Source of the DNA: Schumannella soli
Lineage (GTDB): Bacteria; Actinomycetota; Actinomycetes; Actinomycetales; Microbacteriaceae
Direction: 5' to 3'
DNA: 64,000 nt
Assembly: GCF_006517435.1 (NCBI RefSeq)
Contig: NZ_VHQG01000002.1
Span: 1,072,799-1,136,798 of the forward strand
Of the stretch, positions 7,258 to 49,105 are shown in pieces. Within the stretch, counting starts at the first letter, position 1. Each line of letters begins with the position of its first letter. The notes beneath the pieces were generated by a model. It did not search any database. It was given only the letters and a program-made list of their open reading frames with translations, and was not told where the DNA came from. The translations under genes were made by a program, and so were the position numbers.

Positions 7258-8856
<1,599 letters not shown>

Positions 8857-9012
8857 GATGGAGGTCCGATCTGCGGGATGCGGGAGAGGTCTGGGAGCGT
8901 CGGCGGCGACGCGCGGGCGCGGCATCGGGTGACGATGACGAGAGCCAGCCGCCCAGTTTACGTCAGCCCGGCACTCCGCGCCGACGCGACCACCGAGGCG
9001 GAAGCCGGCGCC

Positions 9013-9621
9013 TCAGTCGACCCCGCGCGCCGACAGCGCGTCGGCGACGTCGTCGGCGTGCCGCAGCGCGAGCACGAGCAGCGGCACGACCGCACGGAAT
9101 CCCAACCGCACACCGCGGGCGCGCTGCGCCTCGCGCACCCGCTGCGCCAGAGCGGCGATCACCGGCACCATCGTGATCGCGAGCGACAGCGTCAGGCCGA
9201 CCCGTCGCGGATCGACGCCGAGCCGGCGCAACGGGCCGAGCCCGGTCTCGAGGGCGGCCAGCACATCGGAGCTGCGCGTCGTGAGGCTGAGCAGCCCCGC
9301 GAGCAGCACGATCGCGACGACGCGCACCGTGTTCACGGCCGCGTCGCCGGGCGTGAGGAAGATCAGCTGGGTTCCCACCATCGCCACGACGATCCAGCGC
9401 GTCGACCAGAGCTGCCGCAGCAGCGGGCGACCCGCGAGCTCGGCGAGGGCGAAGAACGCCACGACGAGAACGAGCCCGCCCGCGGCGAGGCTCAGCCCGA
9501 GCACGATCGGCTGGCGCGGCATCAGTGAGAACCCGACCCCGAGCAGCGCGAGCAGCGCGAGCTTGAGACCCGCCGGCGCGCGATGCAGCGGGCTCGTTCC
9601 GGGCCGGTAGAGCGAGATCAC
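9013..9621 (-). CDS. bioN: Biotin ECF transporter T component BioN
   Basis: 202-residue energy-coupling factor transmembrane protein. It begins VISLYRPGTSPLHRAPAGLKL, followed by several hydrophobic helices, and has the coupling-helix arginine motif near the C-terminus (QRVREAQRARG) typical of EcfT/BioN. It links the ATPase BioM to the substrate-binding BioY. GTG 9621 overlaps the bioM stop (GTGA). It is last in bioY-bioM-bioN on the minus strand. Confidence 0.88.
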   Translation of the reverse strand: MISLYRPGTSPLHRAPAGLKLALLALLGVGFSLMPRQPIVLGLSLAAGGLVLVVAFFALAELAGRPLLRQLWSTRWIVVAMVGTQLIFLTPGDAAVNTVRVVAIVLLAGLLSLTTRSSDVLAALETGLGPLRRLGVDPRRVGLTLSLAITMVPVIAALAQRVREAQRARGVRLGFRAVVPLLVLALRHADDVADALSARGVD

Positions 9622-10373
9622 GCGTGCAGCGCCCGGTAGTCGGCGATGAGCGCGGCAGGATCCCCCGCATCCACGAGACGCCCCTCGGCGAAGCGGAGCG
9701 CCACGTCGCAGCGGGCCGCGAGCTCGAGGTCGTGCGTGACGACGACGAGCTGTGCGTCGAGCTCGTCGATGAGGATGCCGCCGACCCGACGCGCATTGCC
9801 GAGGTCGAGCAGCGTCGTCGGCTCGTCGGCGATGACGAGGGCGGGTCGCCGCACGAGAACCGCCGCGAGGGCGAGCAGCTGCTTCTGCCCGCCCGACAGC
9901 TGATGCGCGGGCGATTCGGCCAGCGCGGTCAGACCGTACGCGTCGAGCGCCGCGGCGACGCGGTCCGCGGCCTCCGCGCGGTCGAGCCCGCTCCCCCGCA
10001 GCGAGAAGGCGACGTCTTCGGCGACGGTGGGCATGAGGATCTGCGCGTCGGGGTTGGTGAACACGATGCCGACGGCGCGTCGCAGCGGCTTCGGCTCGCG
10101 TCGCACGTCGATGCCGTGCACGGCGACCGTCCCGCGGGTCGGCGGGACGAGTCCGCCGAGCACCCGGGCGAACGTCGACTTGCCCGAGCCGTTCGCGCCG
10201 ATCACGGCGACGCGGCGCTGGTCGAGGCGAACCGAGACCTCGGAGAGCACGACGGTTCCGCCGAGCTCGACGTCGAGCGCGTCGACGACGAGCTCGCGCG
10301 GCGCGGGGTGGTCGGCGCCCTGGCCGGTGTCCGGGCCGGTGTCCGGGCCGGTGTCCGGACCGGATCGTCTCAT
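9618..10373 (-). CDS. bioM: Biotin ECF transporter ATPase BioM
   Basis: 251-residue ATPase of the biotin ECF transporter. Walker A is GANGSGKST, the Q-loop region reads FTNPDAQI (the CbiO-like NP-DxQ motif of ECF ATPases), the signature is LSGGQKQLLALA and Walker B is LVIADEP followed by THD. The ATG at 10373 overlaps the bioY stop (ATGA). The N-terminus holds a threefold repeat of PDTG encoded by a 12-bp tandem repeat; it precedes the ABC domain and is probably a flexible tail. Usual ECF ATPases begin close to the domain, so this extension is extra. Confidence 0.9.
   Translation of the reverse strand: MRRSGPDTGPDTGPDTGQGADHPAPRELVVDALDVELGGTVVLSEVSVRLDQRRVAVIGANGSGKSTFARVLGGLVPPTRGTVAVHGIDVRREPKPLRRAVGIVFTNPDAQILMPTVAEDVAFSLRGSGLDRAEAADRVAAALDAYGLTALAESPAHQLSGGQKQLLALAAVLVRRPALVIADEPTTLLDLGNARRVGGILIDELDAQLVVVTHDLELAARCDVALRFAEGRLVDAGDPAALIADYRALHA
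10322..10357. repeat. Three tandem 12-bp units in the 5' end of bioM
   Basis: GGCCGGTGTCCG occurs three times back to back and is in frame on the minus strand, coding PDTG repeated. Copy number may vary between strains by slippage without shifting the frame. Confidence 0.85.

Positions 10374-36277: not shown

Positions 36278-36278
<1 letters not shown>
34143..36278 (-). CDS. uvrC: Excinuclease ABC subunit UvrC, with acidic insert
   Basis: 711-residue UvrC, the dual-incision nuclease of nucleotide excision repair. Order: GIY-YIG nuclease (residues about 20-98, GVYRF and VIYVGKA), Cys-rich segment, UVR helix (EAAKLRDRI, near 240), RNase H-like 5' nuclease ([11 protein letters not shown]) and two C-terminal helix-hairpin-helix motifs ([26 protein letters not shown]). 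Residues about 463-532, inside the RNase H-like region, form an Asp/Ala-rich low-complexity insert that makes the protein 70-90 residues longer than usual. ATG 36278 overlaps the uvrA stop by one base (TGATG). Confidence 0.93.
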
Positions 36279-39181
<2,903 letters not shown>

Positions 39182-39243: not shown

Positions 39244-40665
39244 TCAGCTCTCGCGGAGGAAGCGCCGGGGCTTCCCCTCCCCCAGATCGATCGGCCGCGC
39301 GACGCGGTCGAGCTCCACCGGCTGCGCTAGCAGGGCGCGGATGCTGCGGGCCGCGCGCTCCGGGTCGCCGCCGGCCACACGCGCGGTCACCGAGCCGTCG
39401 GCGCGCTGCACCAGCGACCAGGCGAGCGCGCCCGCGTCCTGGAGGTACTGCGTCAGGTCGACCGTGTTGATCGCCCGCCCGCCGGCCGTGACGAACTCGA
39501 CGTGCTCGCGGCCCTCGAGGTCGGCGATCGCCGGGCGGCCGTCGCGCTCGACGAGGCGGCCGTGATCGCCCGTGCGGTAGCGAGCGAGCGGCAGTAGCGG
39601 GTTGCTGCCGGCGGTGACCACCAGCTCGCCGCGGGCCGCGCCGGCGGGGCGACCCGCCGCATCCACCGTCTCGACCAGCACCCGGGTGTCGAGCACCCGG
39701 AAGGGTCCGTCGTCGGCGCGCCAGGCGATCGGGCGGGTCTCGTGCAGGCCGTAGAGGTCGAGCACCGGAACGCCGAAGCGGGTCTCGAGCGCGGCGCGCA
39801 GCGCCGGGGTGAGATGCAGGGCCCCGCTCACGATCGCGAGGGGGTTCAGCACCGCGGCCGTCGCGGGTTCGAGCAGCGTCGCGAGACTGCTCGGGTTGCC
39901 GCTGATCAGCTGAGGATCCTGGTCGCGCAGGAACGCGATCCGATCGGTGGTCGGCCAGTCGCGCGGATCGAGGTTGAGGCGCGCCATCAGGGTCTGGCCG
40001 TCGGCGCTCCGTCCGGTGGCACCGGCGCCCCCGTCGCCTCCCTCGGCGATGAATCCGGGCACTGGCGAGACGTAGGTGAAGGCCTGCCGCTGGTGCACCA
40101 CGAGCGCGAGCGCGAGGCGGCGCGGATCGGGCCGCCAGTCGACGCCCAGTCCGGCGAGCAGGCGGTGCACGAGCCAGAAGGTGCGGGCCACATCCTCGAT
40201 GTCGTCGGGCAGCCGGAGCGCCGCCCCGGTCGACCCCGAGCTCGAGCCCTGCACGAGCCGGGAGAGGTCGGCGTCGCGCGGCACGAAGCCGCCGATGTCG
40301 GCCGCGAGCTCCGCTCGGGAGACGAGCGGGAAGTCGTCGAGAGCGTGCAGGCGTCCGCGCAGACCGCGGTACGCGGGCAGCTCGCGCACCGCGTCGAGGT
40401 GCGCCGGCAGCCAGTCGTCGGTCGGGAGCTCCGTGCGCGCCCGCTCGACGGCGGCGGGGTCGAGCCGATGCCCCACCCGATGACGCCAGACCGGGGCGGC
40501 CGGATGCGCGAGCACCGAGTCCAGGTGGGCGCGCGCCGCCGCGGGCAGCGCCGGCCAGCGCTCGTCGTCGCTCAGGGCGACGGTGGAGCCCGGCACGTAG
40601 TGCGGCAGCAGCAGGTCAGCGGGACCGGACTCGGCGGCCGGAACCGCGGCCCCCGCGTCACTCAT
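39244..40665 (-). CDS. ANL-family adenylating enzyme, PaaK/CapK-like
   Basis: 473-residue member of the acyl-adenylate-forming (ANL) superfamily, closest in layout to phenylacetate-CoA ligase/CapK-like enzymes. Seen motifs: the P-loop SSGSTG (142-147), YGLHETRP (305-312, aromatic/TE motif), YRTGDHG (363-369, with the ribose-binding Asp), a hinge region [10 protein letters not shown] (382-391) and the C-terminal catalytic lysine K465 in GEGKPRRF. So it should still adenylate an acid. The acid and the acceptor (CoA, a protein or a small molecule) are unknown; no carrier protein is nearby. Last gene of the MoxR/vWA operon: its ATG overlaps the previous stop by 8 bases (ATGAGTGA). Only 62 bases, holding the uvrA promoter, separate it from uvrA. 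Confidence 0.8.
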
Positions 40666-41353
40666 GCGAATACCGTGCCGCCGCCTCCGCCGCACGCTTC
40701 TCGGCCAGGGCGGCCTGCACGCGTCGCCGGTGCTCCTCGTCGGCCACGAGCTCGCGCAGGGCCGCGTCGCGCGCGATCGTGTCGCGACGCTCCCAGCGCG
40801 CCCGCGCGGTCGCCGCATCCTCGCCCGCCGGCGTCCGGCCGGACCAGAGCAGGAACAGCCGGGCCGCCTCCTCGCGGCTCTCGCCGTCGGCGAGCCAGCG
40901 ACGCGGCTCGACGAGCGGCGCGAGCCGGAACGCGAGCGCGCCGATCGACGAGTGCGCCCAACGCACGTCGAGCTCCGGGCGGAACGGCGCGAGCAGCTCG
41001 TGCGAGGCCCAGAGCCAGAGCGCCAGGGCCGCGCCCTGCCGCGACGCGGGATCGCGCTGGGCCCCGTCGGCGATCGCGGCCGCGGTCGTCCGCACGTGCT
41101 CGGGAGCCTCGGCGAGCACGTCGCCCGTGAGCGCGCGCAGCGAGATCGACTCGGCCAGGAACGACTGCGGAGCCGAGGAGATGCGCGTCTGCACGACCTC
41201 GAGCGCGGGGCCGGGCGCGAGCGCGTCCCAGACGCGGGTCTCGTCCAGGCGCAGGGCGAACCAGCGGTCGAGCGGTCCCGGCCCGCCGAGCGTCGAGGAT
41301 CCGCGCGCGTCTCCGCCACCGGCTCCAGCCCCGACTCCGCTGCTGTCAGACAC
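40658..41353 (-). CDS. Unknown helical protein of the MoxR/vWA operon
   Basis: 231 residues, no family recognised. A Gly/Ser-rich N-terminal 25 residues is followed by an all-helical, Ala- and Trp-containing body (PLDRWFALRLDETRVWDAL, LALWLWASHELLAPF, RLFLLWSGRTPAGED) and a charged, probably coiled-coil C-terminus (residues about 185-231, rich in R, E and A). It has no signal peptide or membrane helix. GTG 41353 overlaps the vWA gene stop by 8 bases and its stop overlaps the ANL gene, so expression is tightly linked. It may be an adaptor between the vWA protein and the adenylating enzyme, which is a guess. Confidence 0.65.
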   Translation of the reverse strand: MSDSSGVGAGAGGGDARGSSTLGGPGPLDRWFALRLDETRVWDALAPGPALEVVQTRISSAPQSFLAESISLRALTGDVLAEAPEHVRTTAAAIADGAQRDPASRQGAALALWLWASHELLAPFRPELDVRWAHSSIGALAFRLAPLVEPRRWLADGESREEAARLFLLWSGRTPAGEDAATARARWERRDTIARDAALRELVADEEHRRRVQAALAEKRAAEAAARYSHE

Positions 41354-43364
41354 GCGCGCGTCCTCTCCTGCTCGGCTGCCCCGCCCGCGCGATCTGCTCG
41401 GCCAGTCGCCGGCAGGCCGCCGGCGCATCCGCGTGCCGCTGCACGTGCTCGACCGCGTAGCCGTTCGCCTCCGCCAGTTCGGGCACGCGCCCCAGCCAGC
41501 CGATCACGATCAGCGTCGCCGTGTCGATCCGCTGCCGCACGTCGCCGGCGACGTGCTCGAGACCCGGCTGCCCCTGGCCGAACAGCGACTCGAGTCCGCC
41601 GTCCGACAGCACGACGAGATGACGACGGCGATCGCGCGCGCTCGGCAGCGTGCGGTAGCGCTCCGCCAGCACGTCGAGCGGGAAGGTGGTGCCGCCGCCG
41701 AAGTAGTGCAGCAGCGCGCCGAGCGCCTCGGAGCGGTTTCGGGTCGGGCGCGCCAGACCGGCGACCTGGCGGGGGCCGGAGAACGAGGTGACCTGCACGC
41801 GCCCGCCGCCCGCCAGCACCGACTCGATGAGGATGGCGCCCGCGAGCAGCGCGGGAGAATCCGCCGCCGGGCTCGGCATCGACCCCGAGGAGTCGACCCA
41901 GAGGTCGAGGTCGACGCTCTCCTGCCGCGTCGGCGGATCGTCCTCCAGCCAGGTGCGGCGCCGGGTCGTGACCCCGGGCACGATCCGCGGCGACGCGGCC
42001 AGCGTCGCCCGCCAGTCGACCGCGCTGAGCTCGTCGTCGACATCCCACAGCTCCGTCGGCCCGGGGATCTGCGCTCCGGTCGAGATCGGCTGCGCCGGCT
42101 CGCGGATCGGCTTCACCCAGCGCCGCGCGCCGTCGAGGTACCAGGCCCGCAGCACCGCATCGGCGATCGCCGGATCGTAGAGCTCGAGCGTCTGAGCGAG
42201 TCCGTAGGCCTGGCTGTCCGATCCGGTGGATGTCGGGTCGTCGGCCGTCGAGACGGCTCGGCCGTCGTCGTCGAGGGCCGGATGCCGCGGCTCTTCACGC
42301 AGACGCGCGTCGCGCAGCACCTCGCCGAGCTCGGCCTCCGTGGGGTCTGCGCCGCCGACCTGGCCGCCGCAGATCGCCGATCCCGCCAGGCCGCCGCCCT
42401 GGCCGCGGTGGTCGCCCGGATCCCCCGGGTCGCCCTGGTCACCTTGGTCGCCTTCGAGCAGGTACGGCGCCAGGATCATGCCGGCGCGCAGGGCTCCGCG
42501 GATCGGGTCGTCGCCGAAGGTGCGCACCGTGCGCGCCAGCAGACGCGCATCCGGTTCGGGATGGGTGCGGGTCAGCGCGAGCAGCTCGGCGCGGGCGCGC
42601 TCGGCCTCCGCCGTCGCCGCGTCGAGCTTCGCCTGCTGCTCGCGGAAGCGCTCGGGCACGGTCGCGGCACGCGCCGGGGCCGGCGTGAGCGGCGCGGCTC
42701 TCGGCGGCGTCGGCGGAGGCTCGGCGGCCACGTAGGAGCCGTCGGGCAGATCCCAGATCAGCTCGTAGGCGCGCAGCATGACCCAGAACACGTGGCTGCG
42801 CCCCGACGACGGAGCCAGGATCCGCCACAGCCGCACGATCCCGGGCTCGACGGACGCGCCCGCGGCGGGGTCGGCCACCGGATCCGCCGCCGCCTGTCGC
42901 GCATCCCGCCGCCGCTGCAGTTCGGCGACGCGCACGTTGATCAGCAGGTCGCACCAGACGTTCGCGAGCCAGTTCGCGCGGTCGCGCAGCTGTGCCGGCG
43001 GCTCGAAGGAGCTCGCGACGAGAGCGCGTGCCATCTGCTGCACGATCTTGAGGTCGACGATCCGCGTGCTCGGCGCGAGCACGTGATGCCCGATCTCGTG
43101 GGCGAAGACCGACTCCCACTCGGCGTCGATGCCGTCCCGCTGCGCCAGGGCGGGGTCGACGGTCACCTGCGGCGGGAAGCTGAACCAGGCGAAGCTGCGT
43201 TCGCCGGCATCGGGATGCGCCTGCGCGGGGTGCAGGTGCACGCCCCACAGCGCCTGCGCCGAATCCCACGCGGGCAGCAGGCTCGTCGGCAGGGGGCCGG
43301 GCTGCGTGCCGCGGCGCCCGACGCGACTCCGGTTCCCGCGCTCCGGACGCGGCGCGCGGCTCAT
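41346..43364 (-). CDS. Fusion of HExxH metallopeptidase-like domain and vWA domain
   Basis: 672 residues. The N-terminal part has HEIGHH (zinc motif H89-E90-x2-H93) followed at about 40 residues by NVWCDLLINVRV (N135 to V146), the pattern of the putative metallopeptidase domain of COG3864/DUF2201. The middle (210-350) is variable, with an Ala/Glu helix and a collagen-like GDQGDQGDPGDPGD stretch (305-318). The C-terminal von Willebrand A domain has an intact metal site: D491-x-S493-x-S495, T560 and D588. COG3864 proteins commonly accompany MoxR ATPases, as here. ATG 43364 overlaps the previous stop by one base. Probable role: substrate recognition or metal-dependent processing steered by the ATPase; the target is unknown. 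Confidence 0.82.
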   Translation of the reverse strand: MSRAPRPERGNRSRVGRRGTQPGPLPTSLLPAWDSAQALWGVHLHPAQAHPDAGERSFAWFSFPPQVTVDPALAQRDGIDAEWESVFAHEIGHHVLAPSTRIVDLKIVQQMARALVASSFEPPAQLRDRANWLANVWCDLLINVRVAELQRRRDARQAAADPVADPAAGASVEPGIVRLWRILAPSSGRSHVFWVMLRAYELIWDLPDGSYVAAEPPPTPPRAAPLTPAPARAATVPERFREQQAKLDAATAEAERARAELLALTRTHPEPDARLLARTVRTFGDDPIRGALRAGMILAPYLLEGDQGDQGDPGDPGDHRGQGGGLAGSAICGGQVGGADPTEAELGEVLRDARLREEPRHPALDDDGRAVSTADDPTSTGSDSQAYGLAQTLELYDPAIADAVLRAWYLDGARRWVKPIREPAQPISTGAQIPGPTELWDVDDELSAVDWRATLAASPRIVPGVTTRRRTWLEDDPPTRQESVDLDLWVDSSGSMPSPAADSPALLAGAILIESVLAGGGRVQVTSFSGPRQVAGLARPTRNRSEALGALLHYFGGGTTFPLDVLAERYRTLPSARDRRRHLVVLSDGGLESLFGQGQPGLEHVAGDVRQRIDTATLIVIGWLGRVPELAEANGYAVEHVQRHADAPAACRRLAEQIARAGQPSRRGRARV

Positions 43365-43996
43365 CAGCGCCGCCACACGGAGACGAGATAGCTGTCGGGC
43401 GAGATCGCGGCGGCGAGACGCGCGCGATCCGACGGCGCCTCGCTGAGCGGCTCGGCCGCCGGCGTGATGCGGCAGCCCACCGCATCCAACTCGACCTGCC
43501 ACCACTGCGCGCCCGTGGCCACCGACAGCACGGCGCCCTCGGCGACGACGAGGTCGCTCGGGGCCTCGGTCCAGACACCCCCGAGGCCGCGGAATCCGCC
43601 CACCAGAGCGAGTTCGCTGCCTGCGCCGGGCCACGCCAGCGGATCGTCGGATGCCAGGAGCTCGCCGATACGATCGGTGTCGAGGGCGAGCGCCGCCCCG
43701 GCCACGTCCCGCGGCAGCTCGGCCGCCGCGCCGCGCGCCGCGCGTCGGAACGCAGGGATGCCGCTGCGCCAGGCCGAGACCGCGCCGATCGCGCGAAGCG
43801 CAGGCTCCGTCGCCGCCTCGTCGCCCCCGATCGCGCGCAGCCTCGCGAGACCGGACGCCGCCGACTCCGTGTACCGGCCCGGATCACCGCCCCACCCGGC
43901 GACGCGCTCCACCGTCGCGGTCAGCAGCGGCGGCAGCTCCACCGCCGTCGGCCGCCGCAGCTGCGCGTTCGCCGCCATCCCCGCGCGCTGCATCAT
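43364..43996 (-). CDS. Unknown protein of the MoxR/vWA operon
   Basis: 210 residues without a recognised family. The N-terminal 100 residues are Ala/Arg-rich and helical; the C-terminal half reads as beta strands (ELALVGGFRGLGGVW, DLVVAEGAVLSVATG, QWWQVELDAVGC, SYLVSVWRR). No signal peptide, membrane helix or catalytic motif is seen. ATG 43996 overlaps the MoxR stop (ATGA) and its own stop overlaps the vWA-peptidase start, so it lies between the two core components and is made in fixed ratio with them. Homologues may be limited to this operon type. Confidence 0.65.
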   Translation of the reverse strand: MMQRAGMAANAQLRRPTAVELPPLLTATVERVAGWGGDPGRYTESAASGLARLRAIGGDEAATEPALRAIGAVSAWRSGIPAFRRAARGAAAELPRDVAGAALALDTDRIGELLASDDPLAWPGAGSELALVGGFRGLGGVWTEAPSDLVVAEGAVLSVATGAQWWQVELDAVGCRITPAAEPLSEAPSDRARLAAAISPDSYLVSVWRR

Positions 43997-45561
43997 CGGC
44001 CGGTCGACTCCAGCCAGCGCAGGTAGTTCGTGTAGCGCTGGTGCAGGTACTTCAGGGCGAGCAGCTCGTCGTAGTGCCGACCGTAGAGCTTGCGGGTCGC
44101 CGCGATCGCGCCGATCGCCGACTCGACGGCCGTGATGCGGCGCGAGGTCTCGAGCGCATCCAGGCCCTCGAGCCCACCCGACGCCTGCGCGAGCAGCGCG
44201 CCGACGGGATCGTCGCGGTCGAGGCCCAGCGCCCGGAACTGCTCACCCGACTGGCGCCACAGATCGCGCAGCCAGGCCACCGCATCCGTCGCCAGCTCGC
44301 GGTCGAGCTCGCCCTCGAACCGCGGATGCGTCGGGTTCGGCAGCAGCTTGCCCCGCAGCACGAACGGCAGCACCGCCGCCACGTCGTCGAGCCCGACCGC
44401 GCCGACGCCGCGGAACCAGGCCATCGCCTTGGCGTAGAGGATCAGCGTCTGCAGCGCGCGCACCGAGATGCTGTTGACCGTCTGCGCGCCGAGATCGACC
44501 TCGAGGTCGGCGCCGCCGTTGCTCTCGATCGCCTCGGAGACGCTCGCTCCCCCGGTCGCCACGGTGTCCTTGGTGCGGTACTCGAAGGCGCGGCCGCCGT
44601 GCTGCACGAACTCGAAGTGGCTCGTGAAGAACTCCAGACGGCGTTGTACGTCGGCCGGGAGCGGCACGGCGCGGATCTCTGCCGCCATGCGGGTGCGCCG
44701 GTCGGCGTCGAACCGCAGCTCGACGGGCACGTGATCCTCGGGGCGCTCCCCCGCCTCGACGCGCGACACCAGCTCGCCGAAGAAGCGGCTGTTGAAGCCG
44801 AGCGCCGCGACCGTGACGTCCATGCGATCCCGCAGCGCCTGGATCACCGGGAAGGTGCCGCCGCCGGCGTCGTCGTTCGCCGTGAAGTACCAGGCGTCGA
44901 CGCCCGACTCCCCCGCCGTGCGCAGCTGCTGGTCGTAGCTCTCGACGTAGCCCTCGGCGACCATCGTCAGCAGCGCCGACTGGGTCTTCGTCGGGATGCG
45001 GTTGTACTCGTCGACGATCTTCACCGGTCGGGCGAGCCAGCCGCGCCAGGCGACACGCACCGCATCCAGGCTGTCGGCCTCGACCAGGTCGCGCGGAAGC
45101 GGAGCGCCGACGAGATCGCTCACGGTCAGCTGCGGCTGCCCCTGCACGACCGAGGTGCGCACCACGGTCGGCTCGTCGCCGGCCAGCACGCCCATCAGTA
45201 CGGCCAGCGTCGTCTTGCCACGACCGGGTCCGCCGATGAGCAGGCAGCGCCCGCCGACCGCGAAGGTGAGCAGCGGCAGCAGCACGTTCGACGAGTAGGA
45301 CTGGTCGGTGGCCAGCTCGAGTCGCGCCCCGGCATCGCCGAGCTCGAAGCTCAGCGGGGCGTCACGGGAGAACTCGACGTCGTAGAAGGGCGAGATCACG
45401 GCGCGGTTGACGAGCCAGAAGTAGGCCTGGCGCAGCCGTTCGTCGAGGGGCGGGTCGACCGGCGCGGTGGACGCGAACAGGTCGTCGGCCGTGAGCTCGG
45501 CTCCGGCGTCGGCACCGCTGCGGGTGGGCGAAGACGAGATGTGGCTCCACCGGTCGCTCAT
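43993..45561 (-). CDS. MoxR-like AAA+ ATPase
   Basis: 522-residue AAA+ ATPase. Walker A is GGPGRGKTT (110-118), Walker B VKIVDEYNR (180-188, the MoxR-type DExNR), sensor 1 TAND (227-230) and an arginine-finger-like ALRDRMD (242-248). N-terminal 90 residues and the C-terminal 170 residues are extra to the usual 320-350-residue MoxR core. MoxR ATPases act as chaperones that, with vWA proteins, activate or mature other proteins. First gene of a five-gene coupled operon; ATG 45561 lies 6 bases after TAGAGT (45568-45573), a -10 giving a leaderless start. Confidence 0.85.
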   Translation of the reverse strand: MSDRWSHISSSPTRSGADAGAELTADDLFASTAPVDPPLDERLRQAYFWLVNRAVISPFYDVEFSRDAPLSFELGDAGARLELATDQSYSSNVLLPLLTFAVGGRCLLIGGPGRGKTTLAVLMGVLAGDEPTVVRTSVVQGQPQLTVSDLVGAPLPRDLVEADSLDAVRVAWRGWLARPVKIVDEYNRIPTKTQSALLTMVAEGYVESYDQQLRTAGESGVDAWYFTANDDAGGGTFPVIQALRDRMDVTVAALGFNSRFFGELVSRVEAGERPEDHVPVELRFDADRRTRMAAEIRAVPLPADVQRRLEFFTSHFEFVQHGGRAFEYRTKDTVATGGASVSEAIESNGGADLEVDLGAQTVNSISVRALQTLILYAKAMAWFRGVGAVGLDDVAAVLPFVLRGKLLPNPTHPRFEGELDRELATDAVAWLRDLWRQSGEQFRALGLDRDDPVGALLAQASGGLEGLDALETSRRITAVESAIGAIAATRKLYGRHYDELLALKYLHQRYTNYLRWLESTGR

Positions 45562-45676: not shown

Positions 45677-46861
45677 TCACTCGTAGCTGACGGTGACCTT
45701 GTCGCCCGAGACCTTGATCGTGCCGAAGAGGTAGAAGGTGTCGGTGGACGTGCGCGGCGTGTAGGGGCTGCTCGAGCTGTAGCGCTGCTGGTACGTCGCC
45801 GTCGCCTTGCCGCCGTCGCCTGTGAAGCGCAGCGTGCTCCCGTTCTGGATCTTGATCGTCGGGTAGCTGTCGACCTTCCAGCTGAGACCCTGCACGTCGC
45901 CGTAGGCGTAGGTGTAGAACGGGCAGCCGCTGGGGCGCGCCTCGGTACTGGCGGCGCACTTGTCGATGTTCGCGTTGATCTGCTTCTCGACCTCCTTCTG
46001 GAGCGCGGCCGTCGGCTGGATGTCGATGCTCGCCGCTCCATCGGAGCCGTAGGCGCCGACGACGACCTTCGCGTTGTCGGCCTCGAGCCACTTGTTCGAG
46101 TCGGGCGTGCCGATGTCGTACACGCCGGGGTAGGCCAGGATGCTGAGGTAGCCCCCGGCCTTGCGCGAGACCGCCACGTCGACGCCGTTGACCGACACCG
46201 AGTCGGCGCCGCTCGCGCTCACGCTGATCGGGTAGGCGATCGACTTGTCGACGACCCACTTGTCGAAGAAGACCGCCTGCTTGCCGGCGCGGGCGAGCTG
46301 CAGGCTGATCGACTGCTTGTGGCCGTCGACCGAGAACGTGACTCGCGTGTATCCGGTGGAGCCGACGCTGCCGACCTGCACGTCGGAGATGCGGTTCTCG
46401 GCCTTCGCGAGCACCTCCTTGCTCTCGAGCAGGGTGGCGTCGTCGCGGCTGGTGCTCTCGGGCTCGGCCATCTTGGTGGCCTTCGCGAGGTCTCCGGAGG
46501 CGATCGCGTTCATGTACTCGCGGGCGACCGACTGCGGCGAGAAGAACGTCGATCCGACGATGTTGAGTCCGACCGCTCCGACGATGACGGCGCCGAGCAC
46601 GATGCCGCCGATGACGATGCCGCGGGCAAGGCCCGACATGCCGGGGGTCGCGTTCGGGTAGCCGGGGTGGCGCGGTGCGGCGGGCTTCGACGGCTGCGCG
46701 GGAGCGCCGGCATAGGCCTGCTGCGGAGCGCCGTACGGAGTCGTGTTCGGCGCGGCCGCGCCGGGCTGCGCGCCGTTCGGCTGCCCGGGCTGCTGCGGCG
46801 ACCCGTAGCCGAAGCCGCCCTGGGGCTGCTGAGGGGTGTTCGGATCGTAGGGCGTCGACAT
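45677..46861 (-). CDS. Membrane-anchored protein with Pro/Gln-rich cytoplasmic N-terminus, unknown
   Basis: 394 residues. The first 75 are Pro/Gln/Gly/Ala-rich and disordered; one helix (about residues 80-104) is followed by an extracytoplasmic part of about 290 residues made of repeated beta-rich segments, beginning SPQSVAREYMNAIASGDLAKA, a pattern seen in TcaA/DUF4878-like proteins. Two cysteines in DKCAASTEARPSGCPFY could form a disulfide. ATG 46861 has a GGAG ribosome site; a -10 (TAGGGT) may lie at 46944-46949. Function unknown; a cell-envelope sensor or assembly role would fit the layout. It lies between uvrB and the MoxR operon and has its own likely promoter. Confidence 0.78.
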   Translation of the reverse strand: MSTPYDPNTPQQPQGGFGYGSPQQPGQPNGAQPGAAAPNTTPYGAPQQAYAGAPAQPSKPAAPRHPGYPNATPGMSGLARGIVIGGIVLGAVIVGAVGLNIVGSTFFSPQSVAREYMNAIASGDLAKATKMAEPESTSRDDATLLESKEVLAKAENRISDVQVGSVGSTGYTRVTFSVDGHKQSISLQLARAGKQAVFFDKWVVDKSIAYPISVSASGADSVSVNGVDVAVSRKAGGYLSILAYPGVYDIGTPDSNKWLEADNAKVVVGAYGSDGAASIDIQPTAALQKEVEKQINANIDKCAASTEARPSGCPFYTYAYGDVQGLSWKVDSYPTIKIQNGSTLRFTGDGGKATATYQQRYSSSSPYTPRTSTDTFYLFGTIKVSGDKVTVSYE

Positions 46862-47038: not shown

Positions 47039-49105
47039 TCAGCGCACGTGCCCCGCGGCCTCCATCTGACGCAGCTCCTTCTTGAGATCGGAGAGCTCGT
47101 CACGCAGGCGCCCCGCCAGCTCGAACTTGAGCTCGTCGGCCGCCGCCAGCATCTGGCTGTTGAGGTCGGCGATGATCGCCTCCAGCTCGTTCGCGCCCTT
47201 CGCGGCGAGGCCCTCACGGCGCAGGTTCGGTGTCGCGGCGCGCTTGCCGGGGTCGCGACCCGAGAGCAGCTTGGCGGTGTCGGCGCCTTCGCGGGCCAGC
47301 ACGTCGGTGATGTCGGCGATGCGCTTGCGCAGTGCGGTCGGCTCGATGCCGTTCTCGGTGTTGTACGCGATCTGCTTCTCGCGGCGGCGCTCGGTCTCCT
47401 CGATCGCGGAGGCCATCGAGTCGGTGATGTTGTCGGCGTACATGTGCACCTCACCCGAGACGTTGCGGGCGGCACGGCCGATCGTCTGGATGAGCGAGGT
47501 CGAGCTGCGCAGGAACCCCTCCTTGTCGGCGTCGAGGATCGCCACGAGCGACACTTCGGGCAGGTCGAGGCCCTCGCGCAGCAGGTTGATGCCGACGAGC
47601 ACGTCGTAGACGCCGGCGCGCAGCTCGGTGAGCAGCTCGACACGACGCAGGGTGTCGACGTCGCTGTGCAGGTAGCGCACCTGCACCCCCGCCTCGCTGA
47701 GGAAGTCGGTGAGCTCCTCGGCCATCTTCTTCGTCAGCGTCGTGACCAGCACGCGTTCGTCACGCTCGACGCGGGTGCGGATCTCTTCGAGCAGGTCGTC
47801 GATCTGCCCCTTCGACGGCTTGACCACGATCTGCGGGTCGACGAGTCCGGTCGGGCGGATGATCTGCTCGACGATGCCGTCGGCGACGCCCATCTCGTAG
47901 CGGCCCGGCGTGGCCGACAGGTAGACCTTCTGACCGACGCGATCGAGGAACTCCTCCCAGCGCAGCGGCCGGTTGTCGAGAGCGCTCGGCAGGCGGAATC
48001 CGTGCTCGACCAGGGTGCGCTTGCGGCTCGCATCGCCCTCGTACATCGCGCCGATCTGCGGCACGGTCACGTGCGACTCGTCGATCACGACGAGGAAGTC
48101 GTCGGGGAAGTAGTCGAGCAGCGTGTTCGGCGGCTGGCCGGCGACGCGGCCGTCCATGTGGCGGGAGTAGTTCTCGATGCCGTTGCAGAAGCCGATCTGC
48201 TCCATCATCTCGAGGTCGAAGGTCGTGCGCATGCGCAGACGCTGGGCCTCGAGCAGCTTGCCCTGCCGCTCGAGCTCGGGCAGTCGCTCGCCCAGCTCGC
48301 TCTTGATCGTGCCGATCGCCTTGTGCATGGTCTCGGGGCTCGCCGCATAGTGCGTGGCCGGGAAGATCGAGATGGCGTCCATCTTGCGGATCACCTCGCC
48401 GGTCAGCGCGTGCAGCTCGTAGAGCGCCTCGATCTCGTCACCGAACATCTCGATGCGCAGCGCGTGCTCTTCGTACATCGGGATGATCTCGATCGTGTCG
48501 CCGCGCACGCGGAATATGCCGCGCGAGAAGTCGATGTCGTTGCGCTCGTACTGCATTCCGACGAACTGGCGGATGAGCCGGTCGCGCGACACGCGATCGC
48601 CCACCTGCACGGCGACCATCGCGTCCAGGTACTCCTCGGCGGCGCCGAGGCCGTAGATGCAGGAGACCGTCGAGACGACGACCACGTCGCGCCGGGAGAG
48701 GAGCGAGTTCGTCGTGGAGTGACGCAGGCGCTCGACCTCGGCGTTGACCGAGGAGTCCTTCTCGATGAAGGTGTCCGTCTGCGGCACGTAGGCCTCGGGC
48801 TGGTAGTAGTCGTAGTAGCTGACGAAGTACTCGACCGCGTTGTTCGGCAGCAGGTCGCGGAACTCGTTCGCGAGCTGCGCCGCGAGGGTCTTGTTGTGCG
48901 CGAGCACGAGGGTCGGACGCTGCACCTGCTCGATCAGCCAGGCGGTCGTCGCCGACTTGCCGGTTCCGGTCGCGCCGAGCAGCACGATGTCGGTCTCACC
49001 CGCGTTGATGCGCCCCGCCAGCTGCTTGATCGCGGTCGGCTGGTCTCCGCTCGGCTGGTACTCCGAGATGACCTCGAAGGGGCGGACGGAGCGGGTCGGT
49101 TCCAT
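47039..49105 (-). CDS. uvrB: Excinuclease ABC subunit UvrB
   Basis: 688-residue UvrB, the helicase-like damage verifier of excision repair. Walker A GATGTGKS (44-51), the DNA-clamping beta-hairpin [12 protein letters not shown], the DESH box in VIDESHVT, helicase motif VI with QTIGRAARN, and a C-terminal UVR helix ([16 protein letters not shown]) are present. ATG 49105 lies 6 bases after TAGGCT, part of a RecA-NDp-type promoter, so it should be co-induced with uvrA and polA. Confidence 0.97.

Follow-up and report, generated by a model that had tools for sequence, protein, structure and literature searches.

In a 64,000-nucleotide stretch of the Schumannella soli genome (contig NZ_VHQG01000002.1, positions 1,072,799 to 1,136,798, forward strand; hereafter the window), five overlapping genes, here called A to E, lie between uvrB and uvrA. 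They are predicted to encode a MoxR-type AAA+ ATPase (A), a putative metallopeptidase with a vWA domain (C), an enzyme of the ANL superfamily (E), and two proteins without an assigned Pfam family (B and D). The same five genes recur as one unit in many other genomes, and this module is very probably linked to the salvage of nicotinamide riboside (NR) for synthesis of nicotinamide adenine dinucleotide (NAD), a pathway represented by the importer PnuC and the kinase/adenylyltransferase NadR. We tentatively propose that the products of A-E are the subunits of a single ATP-driven machine for protein processing that cooperates with NR salvage, so that the functional unit may comprise seven genes.

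Conservation of the five-gene unit

A search with a profile of nine A sequences, run on a collection holding one genome per species, yielded 421 related stretches; the loci studied here are the best 80 of these 421. Five of the 80 end at a contig edge before E (L061, L078, L107, L115, and L129) and one is rearranged (L085). In all 74 remaining loci, C, D, and E come after A in that order and without a change of strand, with E running off the contig end in four (L095, L111, L112, and L121); B was detected in 70. The overlaps between consecutive genes recur as well: A and B overlap by 4 nt in 62 of 70 loci, B and C by 4 nt in 68, C and D by 8 nt in 44, and D and E by 8 nt in 39. A-E form one real unit. 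A preliminary description of the window, made from the sequence alone, had suggested as much and had named beforehand a possible refutation, that E might rarely adjoin the other four genes elsewhere; E is present in all 74 uncut, non-rearranged loci, and the idea stands. The block is not a chance arrangement, because its gene order is kept across genera and phyla, it is absent from a genome of the same genus, and the HEIGHH-type motif of C occurs in 82 of 82 sequences.

Within the family Microbacteriaceae (199 genomes), C is present in eight genomes, and the E profile matches in 41. The E matches scoring 565-647 bits come from eight genomes, identical to the eight with C, and the next best match scores 112 bits. 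Outside Actinomycetota, the loci all come from metagenome-assembled genomes (MAGs), assigned to Myxococcales (L111), Planctomycetota (L115, L125, and L127), Desulfosudis (L120), Spirochaetaceae (L122), and an unclassified bacterium (L119).

A few loci depart from the standard arrangement. In the rearranged locus, from Mycolicibacterium houstonense, A is preceded by a complete C next to a def-like gene, and B is followed by fragments of C and D; this is a rearranged or misassembled copy. Two Planctomycete MAGs have an extra gene between A and B (L127:11468-12490 and L115:1843-2808) with a C-terminal Nuc_deoxyrib_tr domain (PF05014, 7e-7 in L127). Between C and D, the Spirochaetaceae MAG encodes two membrane proteins that by eye resemble CDF- and ZIP-type metal transporters (L122:14526-16099), and the Myxococcales MAG encodes a 737-residue protein without a Pfam match together with a protein kinase (PF00069, 4e-42; L111:9157-13003). 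One Planctomycete genome (G696) has A and C, with HEVGHH intact, and lacks D and E.

Linkage and co-occurrence with PnuC and NadR

Clustering of the genes flanking the 80 loci gave two dominant families, both upstream of A and on the same strand: PnuC and NadR. The PnuC family matches Pfam NMN_transporter (E-value 1.5e-48), and the NadR family, whose domains are described in PMC9503650, matches AAA_28 and, in the spirochaete and planctomycete copies, CTP_transf_like. The latter domain was not detected at E-value <=0.01 in the Demequina NadR, which keeps the HxGH and SGTxxR motifs. In actinobacterial NadRs, with or without the module, T or S replaces the lysine of the kinase P-loop (GAESTGTT); spirochaete and planctomycete copies keep K.

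A tblastn search of the raw DNA placed NadR upstream of A, in the same orientation and no more than 1.2 kb away, in 52 of the 80 loci, spread over 16 genera, with 21 of the 52 in Microbacterium. PnuC is also present in 51 of these; the exception, L121, has nothing more than a partial NadR at the edge of its contig. Four further loci are linked otherwise: two from Oerskovia with NadR about 3.8 kb upstream, the Spirochaetaceae MAG, where NadR overlaps the end of E, and a Planctomycetota MAG (L125), in which the pnuC-nadR pair is divergent and separated from A by a radical SAM gene (PF04055, 5e-12; L125:8751-9875). For the 24 loci without a linked NadR, we searched 23 genomes (that of L078 was left out) and found NadR elsewhere in 22, with E-values of 1e-36 or better. 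Counting linked and unlinked copies, 78 of 79 tested loci thus have a NadR in their genome; the exception is the MAG of L115 (G603). A search of 23 module genomes recovered PnuC in 21, and in 20 its coordinates place it beside NadR.

The S. soli genome itself belongs to the unlinked group, with NadR at G000:C6:784269-785357, about 0.33 Mb from the module. This position is beyond the window, and the preliminary description accordingly missed the link to PnuC-NadR. The pnuC-nadR pair of S. soli (L160, G000:C6:776000-794000, at about 8240-9990) is encoded on the minus strand and flanked by genes that by eye are nusA-like and infB-like, another tight housekeeping block.

In the Microbacteriaceae, NadR is present in all eight module genomes (three adjacent, five unlinked) versus six of the 191 module-free ones, of which only two (G194 and G019) have a full-length NadR without stops (hypergeometric p 5.7e-11, uncorrected for phylogeny). 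Presence and absence vary together within two genera: three genomes of genus g1 (G000, G118, and G173) have both module and NadR and a fourth (G048) has neither, and in genus g5 one genome (G087) has both and another (G004) neither. In a sample of 396 genomes from the phylum, NadR occurs in 12, including both module genomes (G000 and G360). In the Planctomycete class, the NadR search covered 50 of 88 genomes. The module and an unlinked NadR occur together in G608 and in the newly drawn G634; NadR is present in two of 47 module-free genomes and was not found in G696. The p-values for the phylum and Planctomycete tests (8.4e-4 and 0.005) overstate independence, as they include genomes already known to have both (G000 and G608, respectively).

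In a tree of 79 rows, from which L119 (empty) and L091 (cut) were dropped for length and in which L050, L052, and L118 were ignored as antisense-frame artefacts, a clade distinct from the linked NadRs takes in most of the unlinked actinobacterial ones. Because of this separation, we conclude that different NadR lineages meet the module's need. The dependence appears to run one way, the module needing NadR and not the reverse, because NadR also occurs without the module. Three linkage arrangements (upstream, downstream of E, and divergent), together with co-occurrence when unlinked, make the NadR tie the strongest functional evidence.

A related pair without E

The C profile matched 18 of the 396 phylum-sample genomes. 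Two matches were strong, both from genomes with A, C, D, and E (G000 and G360), and 16 scored 126-144 bits. In the loci taken from these 16 genomes (families f22 and f28; L038-L049), the relatives are homologous to C over nearly the full length (hhalign probability 99.9, E-value 9.5e-33). There, the C homologue stands beside an AAA+ gene and a different third gene, encoding about 282 residues without a Pfam match, and no E is adjacent. In the seven sister C proteins aligned, YQLLHY replaces HExxHH, and no NadR was found in any of the 16 genomes, a contrast that favours the tie between A-E and NadR. This is possibly a peptidase-less sister system.

The block in the window and its insertion site

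The positions of the five genes and of the sites discussed below are collected in Table 1. The coordinates match those of the preliminary description, as do the overlaps, which are successively 4, 1, 8, and 8 nt.

Table 1. Features of the A-E block and its flanking genes, in window coordinates.
Feature	Coordinates	Strand	Characteristics
Gene A, predicted MoxR-type AAA+ ATPase, 522 aa	45561..43993	minus	Walker A GGPGRGKT, Walker B region DEYNR, sensor TAND
Gene B, 210 aa	43996..43364	minus	helical N-terminal half, beta C-terminal half, GGFRGLGG motif
Gene C, 672 aa	43364..41346	minus	zincin-like HExxHH domain N-terminal, vWA domain C-terminal
HEIGHH of C, residues 89-94, putative zinc site	43083..43100	minus	from sequence
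DSSGS of C, residues 491-495, predicted vWA metal site	41880..41894	minus	from sequence
Gene D, 231 aa, GTG start	41353..40658	minus	all-helical, 39-residue helix at end
Gene E, PaaK-like, ANL superfamily, 473 aa	40665..39244	minus	
K465 codon of E, within GEGKPRR, candidate catalytic lysine of the C-terminal ANL motif	39271..39273	minus	
uvrB, upstream flank, outside the module	47039..49105	minus	
uvrA, downstream flank, outside the module	36278..39181	minus	

The preliminary description had read the block as an acquisition into an otherwise conserved run of genes. We likewise conclude that the module was inserted or exchanged at the uvrB-uvrA junction in this lineage, because uvrB and uvrA are only 118 nt apart in a module-free genome of the same genus (G048); in other genera, the module occupies other genomic places. 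Six further genomes of the family have gaps of about 0.14 to 4.8 kb between uvrB and uvrA without A-E. The junction may be an insertion-prone site, because two genomes carry other DNA there, about 4.8 kb in one (L240, G001) and 3.4 kb in the other (L245, G016). Between uvrB and A, the window also encodes a membrane protein weakly similar to the Rv0361 family (45677-46861, below the cut-off), which is present in two copies in both sister genomes (L030:11618-14121 and L031:12504-14793).

Sequence features of the five proteins

By its sequence, A is a MoxR-type AAA+ ATPase. It matches Pfam AAA_3 (E-value 8.1e-7, 29.4 bits versus a cut-off of 27) and AAA_lid_2 (9.1e-7, 29 bits versus 22.7), both above the cut-off, and is 52-98% identical to eight relatives. 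The Walker B pattern and T[AG]ND are found in 85 of 85 copies and the Walker A pattern in 81; in the other four, the start was presumably called too far downstream or the loop may be a variant. The A profile also weakly matches ChlI of magnesium chelatase (PDB 6l8d, E-value 0.0096).

Family models recognize C poorly. The window protein matches Peptidase_M48 (E-value 0.0098) and VWA_2 (0.041, 14.9 bits versus 27) below their cut-offs; among 27 members, six have a weak M48 match and one matches a VWA model at E-value <=0.1. The best match of the C profile among solved structures has an E-value of 0.011, and none is convincing. The active-site motifs are strongly conserved: in addition to the invariant HEIGHH-type motif, DxSGS, the metal ion-dependent adhesion site of vWA domains, is present in 79 of 82 sequences. 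N135, D139, and N143 are invariant in the 27 members, and D139 may be a further zinc ligand. The conserved HExxH makes C a putative metallopeptidase that would bind zinc. The preliminary description's pairing of an HExxH motif with a vWA metal site therefore holds, but its comparison with COG3864/DUF2201 proteins does not, as none of the 27 matches a DUF2201 Pfam model at E-value <=0.1.

No Pfam family is supported by more than one member of B or of D. Their predicted structures are confident, with a predicted local distance difference test score (pLDDT) of 94.8 for B and 91.4 for D, and Foldseek returned no match for either among solved structures in the PDB at E-value <=0.001.

E is related to PaaK-type ligases, matching NCBIfam NF045666 (1.3e-13, far below the equivalog cut-off) and PDB 2y4o (3.1e-9), and the E profile matches PDB 9s3l (2.1e-20) and 2y27 (4.8e-19). 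Its score of 33.5 bits against TIGR02155, versus a cut-off of 646.3, indicates that it is not phenylacetate-CoA ligase (PaaK) proper. Pfam AMP-binding is matched at E-value <=0.01 by 25 of 27 members; the window protein alone scores 19.8 bits, below the cut-off of 29.9. E309, D367, and R386, the residues of motifs A5, A7, and A8, are invariant in 76 of 76 copies. The usual P-loop lysine is absent, by alignment, from 74 of the 76, including the window copy; the two copies with a lysine in the loop are L119 and L253. At the position of K465 (motif A10), a candidate for the catalytic lysine of the C-terminal motif, there is K in 66 copies, R in five, and another residue or a gap in five. Among these exceptions, a lysine stands one or two places off in L116 and L120 and none is there in L122, L125, and L127; E of L125 and of L127 ends before this column. 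The earlier reading of E as an ANL adenylating enzyme thus survives in part: superfamily membership, YRTGD, and the C-terminal lysine in GEGKPRR are all seen in the window, but the P-loop lysine, whose loss the preliminary description did not remark on, is nearly always missing and the C-terminal one is not universal. Nucleotide binding is likely across copies, judging from the conserved residues. Ordinary adenylation is likely in many lineages but not in all, its uncertainty stemming from the lysines missing at the two sites.

A more speculative chemistry would have E, as an ANL-fold enzyme, take AMP from NAD instead of ATP and release nicotinamide mononucleotide (NMN), which NadR would return to NAD, while A-C would process or unload the protein modified by E. 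We raise it because the P-loop lysine, which binds pyrophosphate, is lost and the AMP-binding residues are kept, and because it would explain the near-strict dependence on NadR, but we consider it very unlikely to be correct. An NAD-dependent adenylating reaction would, to our knowledge, be a first in the ANL superfamily.

Proposed working and alternatives

The protein-processing machine that we propose might work as follows, a scheme that is possible but doubtful in its details. A would form a MoxR-type AAA+ ring, to which C would bind through its vWA domain, contributing an HExxH metallopeptidase that would cleave or otherwise act on a protein substrate, and B and D would be dedicated subunits or adaptors. 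E would bind AMP, ATP, or a pyridine nucleotide and could, in many lineages, activate a carboxylate. NMN or NAD produced through PnuC and NadR would feed or control the machine. MoxR-vWA machines are widespread, and few of their clients are known. The A-E unit, whose subunits are constant, whose putative metallopeptidase site is conserved, and which is almost strictly tied to NR salvage, offers a concrete client pathway. If the proposal is true, NAD metabolism in Actinomycetota, Planctomycetota, and other groups has a further layer, that of protein processing.

Several observations weigh against this proposal. NadR occurs without the module, in the six Microbacteriaceae and in 10 of 394 phylum-sample genomes, and one MAG (G603) has the module without NadR and PnuC, while another genome (G602) has NadR without PnuC. 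The genomes of S. soli, Agreia, and Mycolicibacterium keep NadR away from the module. The co-occurrence p-values are uncorrected for phylogeny, and absences in the phylum-wide searches are soft, as these scored three to five candidates per genome. The loci from deep phyla are mostly MAGs, whose taxonomic labels may be wrong. B and D have no informative fold match, and a single fixed chemistry for E is doubtful because its catalytic lysines are not conserved throughout.

An alternative that we consider unlikely is that the unit matures an enzyme of NAD metabolism that needs a metal or a cofactor; C would trim this target, and E would load a small acid. CbbQ-CbbO and NorQ-NorD are maturation machines of this style, and MoxR-vWA pairs commonly activate metal enzymes. 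The AAA_lid_2 domain of A, its resemblance to ChlI, and the metal-transporter-like genes in the Spirochaetaceae locus are consistent with such a role. However, no enzyme recurs as a neighbour besides PnuC-NadR, and E. coli-type NadR, like the PnuC-NadR pair in E. coli and others, works without a module resembling A-E.

The link to NR salvage could also be indirect, the module and PnuC-NadR sharing a lifestyle or travelling together by chance without a joint function. Both are accessory, many module hosts belong to few genera, as the share of Microbacterium among linked loci illustrates, and in Actinomycetota a single inherited arrangement could account for much of the linkage upstream. We nevertheless find this improbable: linkage takes three different forms, the genes co-occur even when unlinked, genera g1 and g5 each hold genomes with both and with neither, and most unlinked actinobacterial NadRs belong to a separate clade.

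We likewise think it improbable that the unit is a defence or conflict system, one of the readings offered in the preliminary description. In such a system, the MoxR-vWA chaperone pair, the peptidase, and effector parts would act on infection and PnuC-NadR would refill NAD. MoxR-vWA pairs do form the core of conflict systems described in PMC7159879. The module is also sporadic (eight of 199 Microbacteriaceae) and inserted between core genes, and extra genes are found in two Planctomycete loci (nucleoside deoxyribosyltransferase-like) and one Myxococcales MAG (kinase). The searches did not bear the suggestion out. PADLOC has no family for B-E and matched A only weakly, through the P-loops of GajB and TRIP13 (E-values 0.036-0.044). 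In PHROGs, A-E gave nothing beyond weak matches, the best being to an ATPase (0.0022). No relative of C turned up among 72,556 plasmid and 50,697 phage records, and none of A in viral contigs. There is no variable effector, as one fixed set of five genes recurs, and the neighbours in recurring clusters are PnuC-NadR rather than defence genes, although no systematic defence-island search was made.

Least plausible among these alternatives is that E converts an acid pyridine precursor (nicotinate, its riboside, or its mononucleotide) to an amide or other derivative usable by NadR, so that the machine would serve NAD synthesis directly: E is related to aromatic-acid ligases, and the substrates of NadR are the amide forms NMN and NR, but A and C would be left unexplained and E lacks catalytic lysines in some lineages.

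Comparison with known systems

The pairing of A and C has a close architectural counterpart in group 2.2 jumbo phages, where a MoxR AAA+ protein stands beside a vWA protein with an N-terminal metallopeptidase, a pair proposed to act in virion assembly (PMC7824862). The likeness is one of two-protein architecture; the passage on this pair names no ANL, B, D, or PnuC-NadR partner, and C had no match at 1e-5 in a tblastn search of a phage collection. The ternary conflict systems of PMC7159879 (with VMAP, iSTAND, FtsH, and beta-propeller components) share the core of MoxR and vWA proteins with extra components. As far as their description there goes, on which the comparison with VMAP is based, A-E differ in being a fixed set of five genes without variable effectors, in the HExxHH motif on C, and in the ANL partner; the main text of that article has no AMP-forming, acyl-CoA, CoA ligase, adenylat, or HEXXH wording.

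The sister pair of 16 Actinomycetota genomes shares homology to C and differs in its YQLLHY motif, its third gene, and the lack of an adjacent E and of NadR. In proteins of the COG3864/DUF2201 type, HExxH is likewise followed by a vWA domain and a MoxR ATPase is encoded beside them, but the C proteins match no DUF2201 model. PaaK-type aryl-CoA ligases (PDB 9s3l, 2y27, and 4r1l) belong to the same superfamily as E, in which their AMP-binding motifs are conserved; E differs in mostly lacking the P-loop lysine, in a C-terminal lysine that is not universal, and in its fixed place in a MoxR-vWA operon. The partner genes match the Pfam families of PnuC-NadR salvage (NMN_transporter, AAA_28, and CTP_transf_like), a pair that elsewhere works without A-E.

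The preliminary description knew of no described system with this gene set, and we found neither the five-gene set nor its PnuC-NadR tie described in the open-licence papers searched. The architecture of A and C and the MoxR-vWA core are already known, whereas the five-gene set appears to be undescribed in that literature and its tie to NR salvage is a new finding of this analysis.

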